A program made the position numbers and the translations under genes. A stretch of DNA of 64,000 bases, taken from positions 167,346 through 231,345 of the forward strand of contig NZ_JMIY01000002.1 of the NCBI RefSeq assembly GCF_000685155.1. The letters run 5' to 3'. The DNA is from Candidatus Methanoperedens nitratireducens (lineage in GTDB: Archaea > Halobacteriota > Methanosarcinia > Methanosarcinales > Methanoperedenaceae). The notes beneath the pieces are model-generated. The model worked only from the letters and a program-made list of their open reading frames with translations, had not been told where the DNA came from and did no database searches. Shown here one piece after another: positions 41,652 to 50,691 of the stretch (positions within the stretch are counted from its first letter, which is position 1; every line of letters starts with the position of its first letter).

Positions 41652-42758
41652 ATGATAACGTTTTCAGATATATTGAATCAGGATATATTTGGTGTTTCCA
41701 TTGAAAAACTTTTGATGTTTTTTATTATAATACTTCTGACTTTCATAATCAGATCTGTTTTTCTGTATATCATAGAGCAAAAATTAACTGCTCTGATAAA
41801 AAAAACCCAGACCGAGTTTGATGACCTGCTTTTAAATTCAATAAAAAATCCGCTCAGTCACCTGATACTGCTTCAGGGTTTCTATATAGCCATAATCTCC
41901 TTGCAACTGCCTGAAACGATAAGCCAGTTCGATATTACTGTATCAGATATAGTGCGCGGTATCTATGTTCTGGCATTCTCATTTATAGTGCTCTATTTCA
42001 TCTTCAGAGTTATCGACATCATAGCGTTTTTCCTCCATAGGGAAGCTAAAAAAAGCAGTAGCACGCTTGATGATCAGCTTGTCCCACTGGTCGTGAAAAG
42101 CCTTCGCATACTCGTCATAATGGTTGGGGTGTTGTTTATTCTTCAGAACTTCGGTTACAACATAACATCCCTTCTTGCCGGGCTTGGCCTTGGTGGCCTT
42201 GCGTTCGCGCTTGCGGCACAGGATACCGTGAGCAACCTCTTTGGCTCAATTACCATACTCTCAGACAAACCTTTCAAGTTAGGCGAATGGATAAGCATTG
42301 GAGATATTGAGGGCACGGTAGAGGATATAGGATTCAGGTCTACCCGTGTACGAAGATTTGACCAGGCTCTGGTCACAGTCCCTAACAGCCAGTTCATCAA
42401 GAGCGGGGTTATAAACTATTCAGCCATGAAAAAGCGCAGGATAAAGTTCGACCTTGGGGTAACCTATGGAACATCAGCAGACAAGATGAAGGAAGTTGTG
42501 GAGGGCATTAAAAAAATTATTGAAGAGGATCACAGGTTTGATCATTCATTCTACATGGTAAAATTCACAGAGTTCGGGGCTTACTCTTTAAACGTATTTA
42601 TATACTGTTTTACAAAGACAACAGTGTGGAATGATTTTCTCACGGTTCATGAAGAATTCAATTTAAAGATCATGCATCTGCTTGAGGATCTGGGTGTTGA
42701 GATCGCCTTCCCGTCGCAGACGCTTTATCTAAATCAAATAAAAAGGAGTGATGGATAA
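41652..42758 (+). CDS. mscS: MscS-family mechanosensitive channel
   Basis: This 368-residue channel protein has four N-terminal membrane helices and the pore helix with the glycine/alanine pattern typical of MscS ([29 protein letters not shown]). The beta domain follows: [43 protein letters not shown]. The channel opens on hypo-osmotic shock and lets solutes out. GAGGT sits six bases before the ATG. Its stop overlaps the ablA ATG, so release valve and osmolyte synthesis genes share a message, which is the strongest sign that the operon is about osmotic balance. Confidence 0.96.
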
Positions 42759-44077
42759 TGTATGGAAAACAGCAAGAAATAATAGAAAAAATAAATCCCA
42801 GAGCATTGATCTCAAACTGGAAAAATTGGAAGTGGCAATTAAAACATTGTATACGGGATATTTCAACTTTTGAGAATTTAACCGGTATTAAGTTTGAGAA
42901 GAGTGAGAGGAAACTTCTTGAAAAAACTATTGCAAAATTTCCTCTTTCCATAACGCCCTATTATCTATCCTTAATTGATACAGATGACTACAGAAACGAT
43001 CCTTTTTTTAAACAGTCTTTTCCTTCGCCGATGGAATTAATCGTCGATAAGTATGAAATGAAAGACCCTTTAGCTGAAGATAAAGATAGTCCTGTTCCCG
43101 GGATCATCCATCGATACCCTGACAGAGTCCTGTTCCATATAAGCAATATCTGCTCCATGTACTGCAGGCACTGTACAAGAAAAAGAAAAGTTGGTGATGT
43201 TGATTCAATTCCTGACAGGGTTGAAATTCTAAAAGGTATTGAATATATCAACAATACTCCTGCAATACGTGATGTCCTGTTATCAGGGGGCGACCCTTTG
43301 ATGTTATCTGATGATTACCTTGACTGGATTCTTACAGAACTGCGGAAGATCCCCCATGTCGAGGTGATCCGCATAGGTACAAGAATGCCGGTTGTTCTGC
43401 CCTATCGTATAACAGATGAACTGGTAGCAGTATTAAAGAAACATCATCCAATATGGGTCAACACACATTTTAATCATCCAAGAGCAATAACAGAATCTTC
43501 AAAAGAAGCTCTGAAAAAGCTTGCTGATGCAGGAATTCCCCTTGGAAATCAATCCGTCCTGCTGGCTGGAGTGAACGACTGCCCCAGGATAATGAAAAAG
43601 CTCGTACATAAACTTGTTCAGAACAGGGTAAGACCGTATTATCTATATCAATGCGATCTGTCAGAGGGATTATCCCACTTCCGCACCCCTGTTGGCAAAG
43701 GTATTGAGATCATGGAGAGCTTGATCGGGCATACCAGTGGTTTTGCAGTCCCGACCTATGTGATAGATGCACCCGGCGGCGGGGGAAAAATCCCTGTAAT
43801 GCCCAACTACCTGATATCATGGTCAACAAATAAAGTAGTTTTAAGGAATTATGAAGGAATTATAACTACATACAAAGAACCAGATAGTTATGAGCCTGTT
43901 TTCTGTGATAGAAACTGCCAGGACTGCAAGCTGCAGTTGAAGCTTAATGAAGCAGAAGAAAAAATCAAAGCTGTTGGTGTTGCCAAACTGCTGGATGATT
44001 TTGATGATACGATCTCTCTTATCCCTGAAAATACTGACAGGATGGAAAGGAGAGCCGATAGAAGAGATGATGAATGA
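42758..44077 (+). CDS. ablA: Lysine 2,3-aminomutase
   Basis: AblA is a radical SAM/PLP enzyme that moves the alpha-amino group of lysine to give beta-lysine. The cluster motif is CSMYCRHC (Cys132, 136, 139). The PLP lysine is Lys344 in APGGGGKIP. The two acids that bind the substrate amino group in clostridial lysine aminomutase are present: Asp300 in YQCDLSEG and Asp337 in VIDAPGG. The length is 439 residues. It overlaps ablB by 11 bases. Together they make N-epsilon-acetyl-beta-lysine, the salt-induced osmolyte of methanogens. Confidence 0.96.
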
Positions 44078-44903
44078 TATCATAACAAATATTGGTAATT
44101 CTACCCTGCAGCACGGGAAATATAATGATCGTATTTATTTAATGAAACTTTCAAGAAATGATTTCCCGGATATCATAGATAAGCTGGATACACTGGCTAT
44201 AGAAAAGGGATACTCCAAGATAATTGCTAAAGTACCTGAATTTGCAAGGGATGAGTTCACAAAGAGCGGCTATTTTATTGAAGCTTTTATCCCTGAATTC
44301 TATGATTGCAATGAGGATGTTTATTTTATGGGGAAATATTTTACTGAATCAAGGCTGCACAGCCGTGAATATGAAAAATTTAGAGAGATATTAAAACTGG
44401 CTGCATTAAAAACAACTGAAGAAAGAACTGCAGAGTGCATCCCCGGATTTAATTGTAGAATCTGTGATAAATCCGATGTTAATCAAATAGCAGGGGTCTA
44501 TAAAACTGTTTTTGAAACCTACCCATTCCCGATACATGAGCCTCAATACATCATTAAAACAATGGATGAAAATTTTATTTATTTTAGCATCTGGAGAAAT
44601 AATAAGATTGTTGCTCTGTCCTCATCTGAAATGGATGCTCGCTCTCAAAATGTAGAAATGACAGATTTTGCCACATTACCCGAGCATAGAGGAAATGGAT
44701 TTGCCGTTTATCTTTTACAGGAGATGGAATACGAGATGCGAAAAAGAAATATGAAAATAGCATACACGATTGCAAGGTCATTATCTTACGGTGTGAACAT
44801 AATTTTTGCAAGAATGGGGTATAGATATAGCGGTACATTATTGAACAATACCAATATTGCCGGAAACCTTGAGAGCATGAATGTGTGGTATAAACCTCTT
44901 TAA
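44067..44903 (+). CDS. ablB: Beta-lysine N6-acetyltransferase
   Basis: AblB acetylates the side-chain nitrogen of beta-lysine. A C-terminal GNAT domain has the CoA-binding turn [23 protein letters not shown], preceded by a family-specific N-terminal half ([26 protein letters not shown] and [12 protein letters not shown]). The start is set at the ATG at 44067, overlapping ablA; the frame is open further upstream but runs through ablA. About 278 residues, as expected. The product is the compatible solute N-epsilon-acetyl-beta-lysine. Confidence 0.94.
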
Positions 44904-44920
44904 AATTACAACCGAGAATA

Positions 44921-46321
44921 ATGAAAGAACTATCTGGATATAATAAAACAAATAAATTATCCGTAAAACGGGTACTGGTCGTTGGTAGCTGGGCTAAGGA
45001 GCAGATCACTATTGAGAATATTCACAGTAACCCTGAGATTGAGATTTTTTCTTATATGGATATCCGAAACCCGGGTATTATGTCACTGGTAGAGGGTTAT
45101 AAGGTAGAAAGCTTTCAGGACATTCATGCTATTGTGAGATATGCCAGGGAACAGAGGATAGACCTTGTCATTATTACGACCGCTTCCCCTCTCTCCAGAG
45201 GTCTTGTTGACGCACTGGAAGCAGACCATATTTTAGCATTTGGACCGGTTCGCCTTGCGGCCCTGTTGGAAGCTGATAAGGAGTTTACCAGAAAACTTCT
45301 TCAAAAATACATGCCATCTGCCATTCCTCGATTTGGGGTCTTTGAAGATCCTCAAAAAGCAACCGACTACGCCGGGAAACTGGACTGGCAGGTTGCGGTA
45401 AAACCCATTGGACTCACAGAAGGACTCGGGGTCAGGGTTTTTGGAGAGCAGTTAAAAGATGAGAACGAGATCAAGGAGTATATACAGCAGGTAATCAACA
45501 GGAGGATTGGCAGAAGTTCAAAGGTAATTATTGAAGAAAAAATTGAGGGGGAGGAGTTCACTGTTCAATGCTTTGTCCACGGAGAGCATGTTCTCCCTAC
45601 CCCTGCTGTCCAGGATTTCAAGAGGTTATTGCCCGGAGAAAAAGGACCGAATACTGCAAGTATGGGATCTTACTCCCAGCAGGGATACCTTCTTCCTTTT
45701 ATGAGAGAGGAGGACTATGAACAAGCACTCAGTATTATTCACAAGACCCTTGATGGTTTTAAGAAAGAGACAGGAAGAATCTGCTCAGGTTTTTTATATG
45801 GTCAGTTCATGGTGACTGCAAAAGGAGTTAAATTAATTGAATATAACTTTCGGCCAGGAGATCCTGAATGGATGAACACGGTCGTTGTATTGAAAAACAA
45901 TCTTTTAGATATCATTCTCAAGCTTTTTCAAGGAGAAGAGCAGGAACTTTATTTTGAAAATAAGGCAACCGTTTGTAAATACATAGTGCCAGTAGATTAT
46001 CCTGAAAAGCTCTATCAGGACTTGGAGGTTGATTTAAACGAGGAGGCTATTTTGCAGATTGATGGTCTTAAGTATTATTACAGCTGCGGCTTGAATGATG
46101 CTGGCAAATTGAATGCTGGGGCAGAGAGGGGAATTGCCTTTGTTGCCAAAGCACCGACTATCGAAGAGGCTAATGAGAAAGTGGAAAAGGCCATTTCCCT
46201 GGTGGATGGGGAATTTTATTACCGTAAAGATATCGGAACCAGGGATCTAATTGATTCAAAGATAGGTCATGTTAACAGACTGAGGGATCAGTATGAGAAT
46301 AAGAAAGGCAACCCAGGATGA
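44921..46321 (+). CDS. PurD-like ATP-grasp ligase of the osmolyte operon
   Basis: The 466 residues follow the plan of phosphoribosylamine-glycine ligase: an N-terminal Rossmann part (RVLVVGSWAKEQI, DLVIITTASPLSRGLVDALEA), AFGPVRLAALLEADKEFTRKLL, the ATP-grasp core (VAVKPIGLTEGLGVRVF, VIIEEKIEGEEFTVQCFVHGEH), QDFKRLLPGEKGPNTASMGSYS and IEYNFRPGDPEWMN. The PurD metal site reads RFGDPE; here it is RPGDPEWMN. ATP-grasp enzymes join a carboxylate to an amine. In an operon of beta-amino-acid genes, an amide- or peptide-forming step on beta-lysine or beta-glutamate is plausible. It could instead be a misplaced purD. The family is sure, the reaction is not. Confidence 0.82.
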   Translation: MKELSGYNKTNKLSVKRVLVVGSWAKEQITIENIHSNPEIEIFSYMDIRNPGIMSLVEGYKVESFQDIHAIVRYAREQRIDLVIITTASPLSRGLVDALEADHILAFGPVRLAALLEADKEFTRKLLQKYMPSAIPRFGVFEDPQKATDYAGKLDWQVAVKPIGLTEGLGVRVFGEQLKDENEIKEYIQQVINRRIGRSSKVIIEEKIEGEEFTVQCFVHGEHVLPTPAVQDFKRLLPGEKGPNTASMGSYSQQGYLLPFMREEDYEQALSIIHKTLDGFKKETGRICSGFLYGQFMVTAKGVKLIEYNFRPGDPEWMNTVVVLKNNLLDIILKLFQGEEQELYFENKATVCKYIVPVDYPEKLYQDLEVDLNEEAILQIDGLKYYYSCGLNDAGKLNAGAERGIAFVAKAPTIEEANEKVEKAISLVDGEFYYRKDIGTRDLIDSKIGHVNRLRDQYENKKGNPG

Positions 46322-46781
46322 TTTCTTGAAAGTACACCAGCTTACCGCTGTATGTCTACCTATGGAGAATTATCCAGAACATGTTTATAAGATTATTTTA
46401 CGTTACTTTGGGGATTATTGTTTTATTGCCGAAGAAAAAGGAAAAATCGTGGGATTCGTTATGGGAATTGTTCCTCCGGGTTTCCTGGGCACCTATTTTT
46501 TATGGCAGATCGGTGTTGATCCCTCTTACCAGGGGCAGGGGATAGGAGAAAAATTGATTAAAGAAGTAGAGGAAGAATTGAGGGAACTGGGTTTTATAAG
46601 AATTGAAGTTACCATTGATCCTGTCAATATTCCTTCTCAGAAACTCTTTGAGAAAATGGGGTATCAGAATATCAGTGAAAGAATAGGAAAGACGATAGAG
46701 GTGCAGGGTAATATAGCTGTTCAGGATTACTACAAACCTGGAAGACATTTTATGGTATATGAAAAACGAATCGAGTTATGA
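46293..46781 (+). CDS. EctA-like GNAT acetyltransferase
   Basis: The 162-residue GNAT protein overlaps the ATP-grasp gene by 29 bases and the next gene by four. The acetyl-CoA loop is VDPSYQGQGIGEKLIKEV. Its core (FLWQIGVDPSYQGQGIG, then VTIDPVNIPSQKLFEKMGY) resembles diaminobutyrate acetyltransferase EctA of ectoine synthesis, which has WQ-V-V at the strand and T-TP-N--S--LF after it. No ectB or ectC is present. In this setting it may acetylate the product of the neighbouring aminomutase or ligase. The substrate is inferred only from context. Confidence 0.75.
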   Translation: MRIRKATQDDFLKVHQLTAVCLPMENYPEHVYKIILRYFGDYCFIAEEKGKIVGFVMGIVPPGFLGTYFLWQIGVDPSYQGQGIGEKLIKEVEEELRELGFIRIEVTIDPVNIPSQKLFEKMGYQNISERIGKTIEVQGNIAVQDYYKPGRHFMVYEKRIEL

Positions 46782-48592
46782 TTAAAAAATTATTCAAATA
46801 TGATAAATCAAGATTAATAGAAACATTATGGGAATGTGACCCTGATATCTATAATATTCTCGTATCAAGTGATGATCTGCAGGATGCCAGAAACAGTATG
46901 TTTGATCATCTAAATGGTATTGAGAGGCATCTTTTTAACATCTATTCAGATAAGCACTTCAAGGATAAGAACCTGCTTGAGAGGAATAACTCCAAGGAAT
47001 GCATCAGGGTATTGAAAAACCTAATAAGGACAGAGAATGAGAAGATCTCAAATTTTTCAGCGCTGAATACGCTGTACAAGATAGCAAATAAAAAGATCAA
47101 TCCCCACAGATTGAATGAGGGTTTTCTTTTTGAATTTATTTTCCTTTTTAGAGGCATTAACTGCGACTCTGGGATATATACAGAGAAGGACGTACCGCTA
47201 TTCCTTAAGTTAAGCGGGCTTGAGGCTGCATTAGAGCGCACAAAATCCCTTGATCGGTACGCTTCAAACATGGAAGATTTTTTAAAACGATATAAGACAG
47301 GAATGGATAAAGATCTGATCAAAAAAAGAAGACAGAACAGGAAGTTCATTCAGGGTCTTTTTAATGCAGACGACCCGGACTGGCTGGATTACAGGTGGCA
47401 TCTTAAAAATATCATCTCTGATATCGACACCCTGCATGAGATCGTCAAGCTAAGTAATGATGAATTAAGGGGACTCAGGTGTGCAAAAAAGTACAAGATC
47501 CCGTTTCAGATAACTCCGTACTATCTTTCACTTTTTGACAGGAAAAACACCGGGAGGTATGACCATACAATAAGAGCACAGGTTTTACCCAGTGAGAATT
47601 ACTGTTTGAACTATATACAGACCAGAAAAAGCGGCTCAAACATGGATTTCATGGATGAGAAATCTACAAGTCCCATAAAAGGAATAACCAGAAGATACCC
47701 GCAGATCCTCATTCTAAAACCTTTTGATTCCTGCCCCCAGATATGCGTATACTGCCAGAGGAACTGGGAAATTACCGACATAAAGGATGCTGCGTTCTCA
47801 AAAGAGACCATGACGAATGCCATAGAATGGATGCGGGATAACCAGTACATAACAGAGGTCCTCATTACAGGAGGAGATCCACTTACCCTGAGCGATATCT
47901 ACATCGAATGGCTGTTGTCAATGATCTCAGGTATAGAGCATATTGAGCGAATAAGGGTTGGTACGAGGATCATTGTAACACTGCCGCAGCGGATTACAGA
48001 GGATCTTGTGGAAGTACTCAGGAGATATAATGAGTTCGGAGTAAGGGAGCTGTGTATTGTTACACACTTTGAGCATCCTACAGAGATTACGCCTGATTCA
48101 TTAGAGGCCATAAAGAGAATTAAGAAAACCGGGATAAATATATACAACCAGCAGGTTTTTACATATTATAACAGTAAAAAATATGAGTCCTCTCTATTGA
48201 GAAAGTTATTGAAAAAATCGGGCATAGACCCCTATTACATCTTCAATACCAAGGGAAAGGATGAGACCATAGATTACCGTGTGCCCATTGCAAGGATTGA
48301 GCAGGAGAGAAAAGAAGAGGCCAGATTCCTGCCAGGGCTTGTCAGGACTGATGAGCCTGTTTTCAATGTACCCAGGCTTGGTAAATCCCATATCCGTTCA
48401 TGGCAGGAACATGAGGTAATAATGATACTGCAGGACGGAAGAAGGGTGTACCGTTTTTATCCGTGGGAATCCAAATATGCGGTTGTTGAGCCGTACAATT
48501 ACATAGATGTATCGATATATGATTACCTTAAGAGATTAAACGATGATAATGAGAATATTGATGATTATTCATCGATATGGTATTATTTCTGA
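46778..48592 (+). CDS. KamA-family aminomutase with glutamate-type substrate site
   Basis: The 604 residues comprise a unique N-terminal domain of about 190 residues and a lysine 2,3-aminomutase-like core. The core has CPQICVYC (Cys319, 323, 326), the SAM motif ITGGDPLTLSD, and the PLP lysine Lys536 in VPRLGKSH. Where the true lysine enzyme has Asp in YQCD and VID, this one has Lys492 (YIFNTK) and Asn530 (VFNVP). Lys and Asn at these places are the signature reported for clostridial glutamate 2,3-aminomutase. Beta-glutamate is a known methanogen osmolyte. A glutamate-type reaction is therefore likely but unproven. Confidence 0.8.
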   Translation: MIKKLFKYDKSRLIETLWECDPDIYNILVSSDDLQDARNSMFDHLNGIERHLFNIYSDKHFKDKNLLERNNSKECIRVLKNLIRTENEKISNFSALNTLYKIANKKINPHRLNEGFLFEFIFLFRGINCDSGIYTEKDVPLFLKLSGLEAALERTKSLDRYASNMEDFLKRYKTGMDKDLIKKRRQNRKFIQGLFNADDPDWLDYRWHLKNIISDIDTLHEIVKLSNDELRGLRCAKKYKIPFQITPYYLSLFDRKNTGRYDHTIRAQVLPSENYCLNYIQTRKSGSNMDFMDEKSTSPIKGITRRYPQILILKPFDSCPQICVYCQRNWEITDIKDAAFSKETMTNAIEWMRDNQYITEVLITGGDPLTLSDIYIEWLLSMISGIEHIERIRVGTRIIVTLPQRITEDLVEVLRRYNEFGVRELCIVTHFEHPTEITPDSLEAIKRIKKTGINIYNQQVFTYYNSKKYESSLLRKLLKKSGIDPYYIFNTKGKDETIDYRVPIARIEQERKEEARFLPGLVRTDEPVFNVPRLGKSHIRSWQEHEVIMILQDGRRVYRFYPWESKYAVVEPYNYIDVSIYDYLKRLNDDNENIDDYSSIWYYF

Positions 48593-50145: not shown

Positions 50146-50691
50146 ATGGCAAAAAGAGAAAAGAAAAGAGAAGCAGAGACTGGCAGGAAAGGTGAAGAAG
50201 AGGGCATACTCGATAAATTAAAGAAGTTTGTTACGCCTGAGACAGAAGAGAGGCCTGGGGCAGAAAAGAGGGTAGAGATGAAAGTCAGGCCTGAGAAAGA
50301 AGAGAGGCCTAAGATGGAGGAGATGGCTGGTGAAGAAAAGAAGCCTTATACCTATGAGTTCTACCATGAGATAGGGAAGAAGGGAGGAGAAGAGAGAAAA
50401 AAAGAATTAGGCCCTGAAGGCTACAAGGAACTTGGACATAAAGGCGGAGAAGCTACCAAAGAAACTCATGGTCATGAGTTCTATCAGGAGATAGGGAAAA
50501 AGGGAGGAGAAGAGAGAAAAAAGGAATTAGGCCCTGAAGGCTACAAGGAACTTGGACATAAGGGCGGAGAAGCTACCAAGGAAACTCATGGTCATGAGTT
50601 CTATCAGGAGATCGGAAAAGCGGGTGGCGAAAAAACCAAGAAAAAACATGGCAGCGAGTCCCTTGAGGAGCATAGAAAAGAACATAAATGA
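50146..50691 (+). CDS. KGG-repeat stress protein
   Basis: The 181 residues end in repeats of a hydrophilic unit, EFYHEIGKKGGEERKKELG and GYKELGHKGGEATKETHG, occurring three to four times, typical of the KGG domain (PF10685) found in GsiB-type general-stress proteins. The first 65 residues are lysine- and glutamate-rich with no repeats. Such glycine-rich, highly charged proteins are thought to behave as desiccation or osmotic protectants. A shorter paralogue is at 57713. The neighbourhood with osmolyte genes fits a stress role (inference). Confidence 0.85.
   Translation: MAKREKKREAETGRKGEEEGILDKLKKFVTPETEERPGAEKRVEMKVRPEKEERPKMEEMAGEEKKPYTYEFYHEIGKKGGEERKKELGPEGYKELGHKGGEATKETHGHEFYQEIGKKGGEERKKELGPEGYKELGHKGGEATKETHGHEFYQEIGKAGGEKTKKKHGSESLEEHRKEHK

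Follow-up and report, generated by a model that had tools for sequence, protein, structure and literature searches.

Organization of the locus

The window analyzed is a stretch of 64,000 nucleotides from 'Candidatus Methanoperedens nitratireducens' (contig NZ_JMIY01000002.1, positions 167,346 to 231,345, forward strand) and carries, on one strand and in this order, genes for an MscS-type mechanosensitive channel, AblA, AblB, a PurD-like ligase, a GNAT acetyltransferase and KAM2, the label used here for the product of the second aminomutase gene. KAM2 is encoded by an open reading frame of 604 aa that starts with ATG; its coordinates are exact, and it shares its first four bases with the end of the GNAT gene before it (ATGA, 46778-46781). 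It adjoins ablA/ablB and the mechanosensitive channel on the same strand with short gaps, which is the arrangement of an abl-type osmolyte operon, and MscS holds the same place before ablA in other Methanoperedens abl loci. A scan with Rfam found no element in the operon of the window. The features are listed below; fractions refer to a conservation set of 44 diverse full-length KAM2 relatives, down to about 47% identity.

41652..42758, + strand: MscS-type mechanosensitive channel (ynaI of PMC11337218), first gene of the operon; PF00924 and other MscS domains
42758..44077, + strand: ablA, lysine 2,3-aminomutase (LAM) with Asp300/Asp337; TIGR03820 793 bits, cut-off 525
44067..44903 (start approximate), + strand: ablB, beta-lysine N-acetyltransferase; TIGR03827 348 bits, cut-off 205
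44921..46321, + strand: PurD-like ATP-grasp ligase, paralogue of the genome's own purD; TIGR00877 324 bits
46293..46781, + strand: GNAT acetyltransferase related to EctA; TIGR02406 73.6 bits, below the cut-off of 120.6
46778..48592, + strand: KAM2, radical-SAM, PLP-type aminomutase of the KamA superfamily with a Lys/Asn pair; TIGR00238 and fold match
46778..47362, + strand: N-terminal helical domain, KAM2 residues 1-195; all helices, family-wide
47732..47755, + strand: radical-SAM CxxxCxxC motif, Cys319/323/326; invariant (44/44)
47759..47761, + strand: Arg328, equivalent of LAM Arg134 by alignment with ablA; invariant (44/44)
48251..48253, + strand: Lys492 codon (LAM Asp293 position); Lys in 43/44, ungapped alignment
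48365..48367, + strand: Asn530 codon (LAM Asp330 position); Asn in 44/44, loop one residue shorter than in LAM
48383..48385, + strand: Lys536, presumed PLP lysine; Lys in 44/44, aligned with ablA Lys344
50146..50691, + strand: KGG/LEA_5-type stress protein, downstream; PF00477 1e-20, PF10685 1e-12

The gene for the KGG/LEA_5-type protein directly follows KAM2 in a sister species (G024, gene order of L197). The host is an anaerobic methane oxidizer and not a methanogen.

The operon in other Methanoperedens genomes

KAM2 lies behind MscS-ablA-(ablB) in six Methanoperedens genomes, the window and five others, with one copy shortened. Gene combinations differ among the other species, so that the parts of the operon appear as separable modules. 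L193 and L194 show MscS-ablA-ablB-KAM2 without the PurD-like and GNAT genes, whereas in L189 the order is MscS-ablA-PurD-like-GNAT-KAM2 without ablB. MscS-ablA-PurD-like-GNAT, again without ablB, is found in L190 and L191, whose KAM2 gene is at a different site; in L192 ablB and the PurD-like/GNAT pair occur together, and KAM2 is likewise elsewhere.

The shortened copy, of 130 aa, belongs to L195 (3771-7454), where genes of 1098, 1326 and 870 bp followed by a 41-bp gap correspond to the operon published for 'Ca. Methanoperedens Vercelli Strain 1'. Salt increases kamA and ablB in that strain, which also accumulates acetyl-beta-lysine (PMC11337218). Because these lengths match, the gene annotated without a function downstream of the published Vercelli operon is probably a KAM2 remnant.

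The PurD-like ligase is the second PurD copy of the genome, 39% identical to the one at G000:C2:117389, and its signature residues are altered (GGGGREHA to SWAKEQI, GPE to TTA, QDHKR to QDFKR). A search for viral relatives of this gene found none. In the Methanoperedens loci compared, the GNAT gene always adjoins the PurD-like gene, and in three species (L189, L190, L191) the two stand behind ablA in place of ablB, which suggests an undescribed route to a beta-lysine-derived osmolyte. As the pair tracks ablA and not KAM2, it seems to be part of the beta-lysine branch; in novelty it may match KAM2. The view of KAM2 as a mere part of a PurD-like/GNAT unit was rejected, since they separate in other species.

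Classification and features of KAM2

The score of KAM2 on the KamA family model TIGR00238 (316 bits, cut-off 199), the CxxxCxxC motif, the PLP lysine and a LAM-like fold place the protein in the KamA superfamily; the family model itself is silent on substrate. An AlphaFold model (mean pLDDT 89, below 50 in the PLP loop 536-542) has LAM (PDB 2a5h) as its best fold match, with a Foldseek probability of 1.00, an E-value of 1e-22 and a TM-score of 0.74 by target length.

Alignment with the neighboring ablA product pairs Asp300, Asp337 and the PLP lysine Lys344 with Lys492, Asn530 and Lys536 of KAM2. The replacement of both substrate-binding aspartates, as given in the preliminary description, is thus confirmed with exact residue numbers, and so is the retention of the cluster cysteines and the PLP lysine. 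Lys492 is placed gap-free between two anchors (PYYLYQCD...RTP in ablA, PYYIFNTK...RVP in KAM2). Asn530 was aligned with Asp337 in two MAFFT alignments, with a spacing to the PLP lysine of N+6=K versus D+7=K in ablA; its placement is less secure than that of Lys492 because this loop is shorter by one residue and the structural model has low confidence in the PLP loop. With Lys492 kept in all but one of the 44 relatives, and Asn530, the three cysteines, Arg328 and Lys536 in every one, the Lys/Asn pair is a family-wide feature and not a product of chance. Arg328 stands at the position of LAM Arg134, which in the LAM structure binds the substrate alpha-carboxylate. The region 493-545, on the substrate side, is strongly unlike LAM and contains the extra invariant basic residues K494, R506, R516 and R523, which may point to a substrate bigger or more strongly acidic than glutamate.

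The N-terminal domain gave no match in Pfam and no fold match in the PDB. Its existence, announced at about 190 residues in the preliminary description, is borne out (about 195 aa, helical), but it is not unique to this protein, since it was found in all full-length relatives examined. Its last 50 or so residues weakly resemble the N-terminal extension of proteins similar to glutamate 2,3-aminomutase (EAM-like proteins): KAM2 residue 150 is where the alignment of the EAM model TIGR04368 starts, and in a set of about 36 sequences an HMM built from residues 140-200 hit the EAM-like L154 with an E-value of 0.0026 and L153 with 0.05, the Bacteroides protein described below ranking above them.

Comparison with known aminomutases

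KAM2 falls well below the cut-offs of the three substrate-specific models: 262 bits on the curated EAM equivalog model TIGR04368 (cut-off 650), 212 bits on the LAM model TIGR03820 (cut-off 525) and 178 bits on the arginine aminomutase equivalog model (cut-off 600). The first of these values does not support counting KAM2 among the known glutamate 2,3-aminomutases. The EAM model gives KAM2 50 bits more than the LAM model does; the neighboring lysine enzyme AblA, with 469 bits, outscores KAM2 on the EAM model. Exchanging single residues of ablA in silico moved D300K from 469.5 to 472.2 on the EAM model (+2.7) and from 793.5 to 790.1 on the LAM model (-3.4), and D337N from 469.5 to 472.4 (+2.9) and from 793.5 to 790.8 (-2.7), respectively. 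As both exchanges gain on EAM and lose on LAM, Lys and Asn are the residues favored by the EAM model at the two columns.

Across the superfamily alignment the two substrate positions are occupied by D/D in lysine enzymes, D/T in arginine enzymes and D/E in EpmB, by K/T in two EAM-like proteins that nearly reach the EAM cut-off, and by K/N in KAM2 and in a Bacteroides protein of 704 aa. The two EAM-like proteins share the first-position Lys in the same YIFN.K setting as KAM2. A further KamA subfamily of 357-370 aa (L205, L206, L211, L212) has Glu/Ala at these positions and occurs in other members of the host's order and in Syntrophaceae.

KAM2 and LAM/AblA (TIGR03820; PDB 2a5h) have in common the fold, the cluster motif, Arg134, the PLP lysine and 34-36% identity in the core, but KAM2 lacks Asp293 and Asp330, carries the additional N-terminal domain of 195 aa, and gave no match to the LAM_C domain (PF12544) in a domain search. 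Clostridial EAM likewise is a radical-SAM and PLP-dependent aminomutase, with an N-terminal extension (the start of the EAM model aligns to KAM2 residue 150) and a proposed osmotic use. Lys and Asn are reportedly present at the same two positions in the verified clostridial enzyme (Ruzicka and Frey 2007, a work cited in PMC7835215). KAM2 differs from it in being about 200 aa longer, in its own long branch, in a different C-terminus and in the PLP loop (NVPRLGK versus APGGGGK). The Bacteroides/Parabacteroides KamA protein of about 704 aa (L152), for which no description was found, shares Lys/Asn (YTFSVKG, LNLPAIGK) and also matches the N- and C-terminal segments of KAM2, yet is only about 26% identical and sits on a very long branch.

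The phylogenetic tree sets KAM2 apart as a fully supported clade at the end of a very long branch. AU tests rejected none of the attachments tried (EAM-like, lysine, arginine and other groups) in a tree that contained no EAM above the cut-off; joining KAM2 to the EAM-like L153/L154 gave a p-AU of 0.64, and joining it to LAM 0.71. The position outside all other groups seen in the first careful tree was dropped, as these tests accept every attachment tried. Nesting in a lysine-specific group, named in advance as contrary to the glutamate assignment, was not seen; neither was a supported join to EAM-like proteins. Since the attachment is left free, no claim of convergence or common descent is made for Lys/Asn. 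Searches of plasmids, of the L104 phylum and of 198 genomes from the G061 phylum turned up no EAM above 650 bits; the best value was 632 bits (L153). The KamA protein of the beta-glutamate maker M. jannaschii matches TIGR00238 and showed no match to the EAM model at 1e-60.

Distribution and genomic context

The nearest named relatives of KAM2 are from 'Candidatus Methanoperedens' and other ANME-2 archaea. A family scan delivered at least 574 relatives, spread over many lineages of bacteria and archaea. Of these, 80 were kept for reading of the lineages; they include Syntrophaceae, Bacteroidetes, Omnitrophota, Spirochaetes, Fibrobacter, Micrarchaeota, Diapherotrites, Woesearchaeota and others. 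KAM2 is present in 15 of the 247 sampled genomes of the host's phylum and, in this sample, absent from all listed genomes of one family of the host's own order (f5). Several genomes, including those of archaea with 1.1-1.2 Mb, have KAM2 as their sole KamA protein, and one bacterium has two KAM2 genes in tandem (L104 491-4358). Among the papers searched, none was found to describe this large and apparently uncharacterized family.

Genes related to osmotic stress recur beside KAM2 outside Methanoperedens, in unrelated bacteria. TreS/OtsAB lies immediately upstream in L058, L066 and L049, and OtsAB at -2 in L072; L101 and L103 have an MscS gene at +1, and L063 has one at +2. By raw count, 9 of 78 KAM2 loci have a gene of the abl, trehalose or MscS kind at most three genes away. 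An nhaA-I (Li+-I class) riboswitch precedes KAM2 on the same strand in L102 (1300-1352, 43.1 bits) and in L068 (2285-2334, 41.0 bits), the only matches in about 0.86 Mb scanned; in L068 a 114-aa open reading frame lies between riboswitch and KAM2, and an AsnB-like gene follows. Na+-I riboswitches, which are related to Li+-I, are reported to control eam genes (PMC9337991), and the description of Li+-I mentions osmotic-stress genes among the tandem cases and possible Na+-sensing variants (PMC9646797). Together with the Methanoperedens operons, these loci point to osmoadaptation.

Other neighborhoods are of a different kind, and many KAM2 genes are solitary or in unrelated contexts. The order gcvPB-KAM2-lipA(-lpd) was found in Syntrophaceae and relatives (L061, L062, L057, L048, L080); this link to glycine cleavage is left unexplained by a role as osmolyte enzyme. 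A DtxR/MntR-type regulator and FeoB lie beside KAM2 in Micrarchaeota on the same strand and in ANME-2 divergently (L067 5561-9797; L043). In a spirochaete (L094 5516-9791) genes for a class-III aminotransferase, BKACE and KAM2 stand in a row, which would fit the breakdown of a beta-amino acid via a beta-keto acid. Among Desulfobacterota, an EAM-like aminomutase is fused to or adjoins an ATP-grasp protein, followed by an M20 peptidase (L159 1891-4659; L158 7573-11707), possibly a pathway for a beta-amino-acid peptide.

Substrate and function

The odds are about even, in our view, that KAM2 stands for a KamA subfamily of its own whose osmolyte product is beta-glutamate or a closely similar acidic beta-amino acid. 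KAM2 would be a radical-SAM, PLP-dependent 2,3-aminomutase for an acidic alpha-amino acid that is most probably L-glutamate. Arg328 would bind the alpha-carboxylate, and Lys492 and Asn530 would bind the carboxylate of the side chain; movement of the amino group from C2 to C3 would give beta-glutamate. In this archaeon the MscS channel, the acetyl-beta-lysine genes and KAM2 are probably expressed together, and an anionic beta-amino-acid osmolyte may thus be added to the zwitterionic one of the cell. The beta-glutamate assignment of the preliminary description keeps the Lys/Asn pair, the preference of the EAM model and the osmotic context on its side and loses family membership. Glutamate as substrate is plausible from the sequence; against it, the EAM-like proteins examined carry Lys/Thr and not Lys/Asn. 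According to a review of 2005, early NMR work excluded a glutamate aminomutase as the methanogen route to beta-glutamate, and a CoA route was sketched (PMC1224877); this verdict concerns other organisms, yet tempers the claim for KAM2. The shortened KAM2 in the strain matching the published salt-stressed enrichment (L195) and the many KAM2 genes that are solitary or in unrelated contexts also count against this reading.

It is rather unlikely that KAM2 acts on another acidic or amide substrate (2-aminoadipate, glutamine, peptide-bound glutamate), Lys/Asn then marking a negative or polar side chain in general. The divergent region 493-545 with its basic residues, the wide margin by which the EAM cut-off is missed, and the AsnB-like gene beside one relative and a saccharopine dehydrogenase pair beside another speak for such a substrate, whereas the same pair is said to occur in the verified glutamate enzyme and cells usually contain more glutamate than any other acidic amino acid. 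Beta-glutamate serving metabolism or nitrogen handling and not osmoprotection appears improbable: the aminotransferase and BKACE genes directly upstream in L094, the gcvPB-KAM2-lipA-lpd order in Syntrophaceae and the occurrence of KAM2 as only KamA in several genomes, including the small archaeal ones, would agree with it, but such a role offers no easy account of the two cation riboswitches or of the osmotic neighborhoods seen in several unrelated lineages.

For a joint role of KAM2, the PurD-like ligase and GNAT in building a conjugated or acetylated beta-amino-acid osmolyte, and not free beta-glutamate, the chances are slim. In the window as well as in G024 and G008 the ends of the three neighboring genes overlap or abut, and EAM-like proteins of Desulfobacterota have an ATP-grasp partner or fusion; the pair, however, stays with ablA where KAM2 is elsewhere (L190, L191, L192), and KAM2 follows ablAB without the pair in L193 and L194. 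A second aminomutase for lysine or another basic amino acid with an altered pocket is scarcely credible, despite the operon shared with ablA and the accepted attachment to LAM, because the whole family lacks both aspartates that bind the epsilon-amine of lysine, one having given way to a Lys that would repel the amine, and ablA already provides beta-lysine.

In the 2005 review the question of which gene makes beta-glutamate in archaea is treated as unsettled (PMC1224877). With its substrate-residue signature, hundreds of members and repeated osmotic-stress neighbors, the KAM2 family is a directly testable candidate for beta-glutamate synthesis, and it would widen the osmolyte set of anaerobic methane oxidizers, which face rising salinity. 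Somewhat short of even odds, we tentatively regard the subfamily as a second, separately branching glutamate 2,3-aminomutase that extends to genome-reduced archaea; if this is true, beta-glutamate would be a widespread and overlooked osmolyte well beyond the methanogens.
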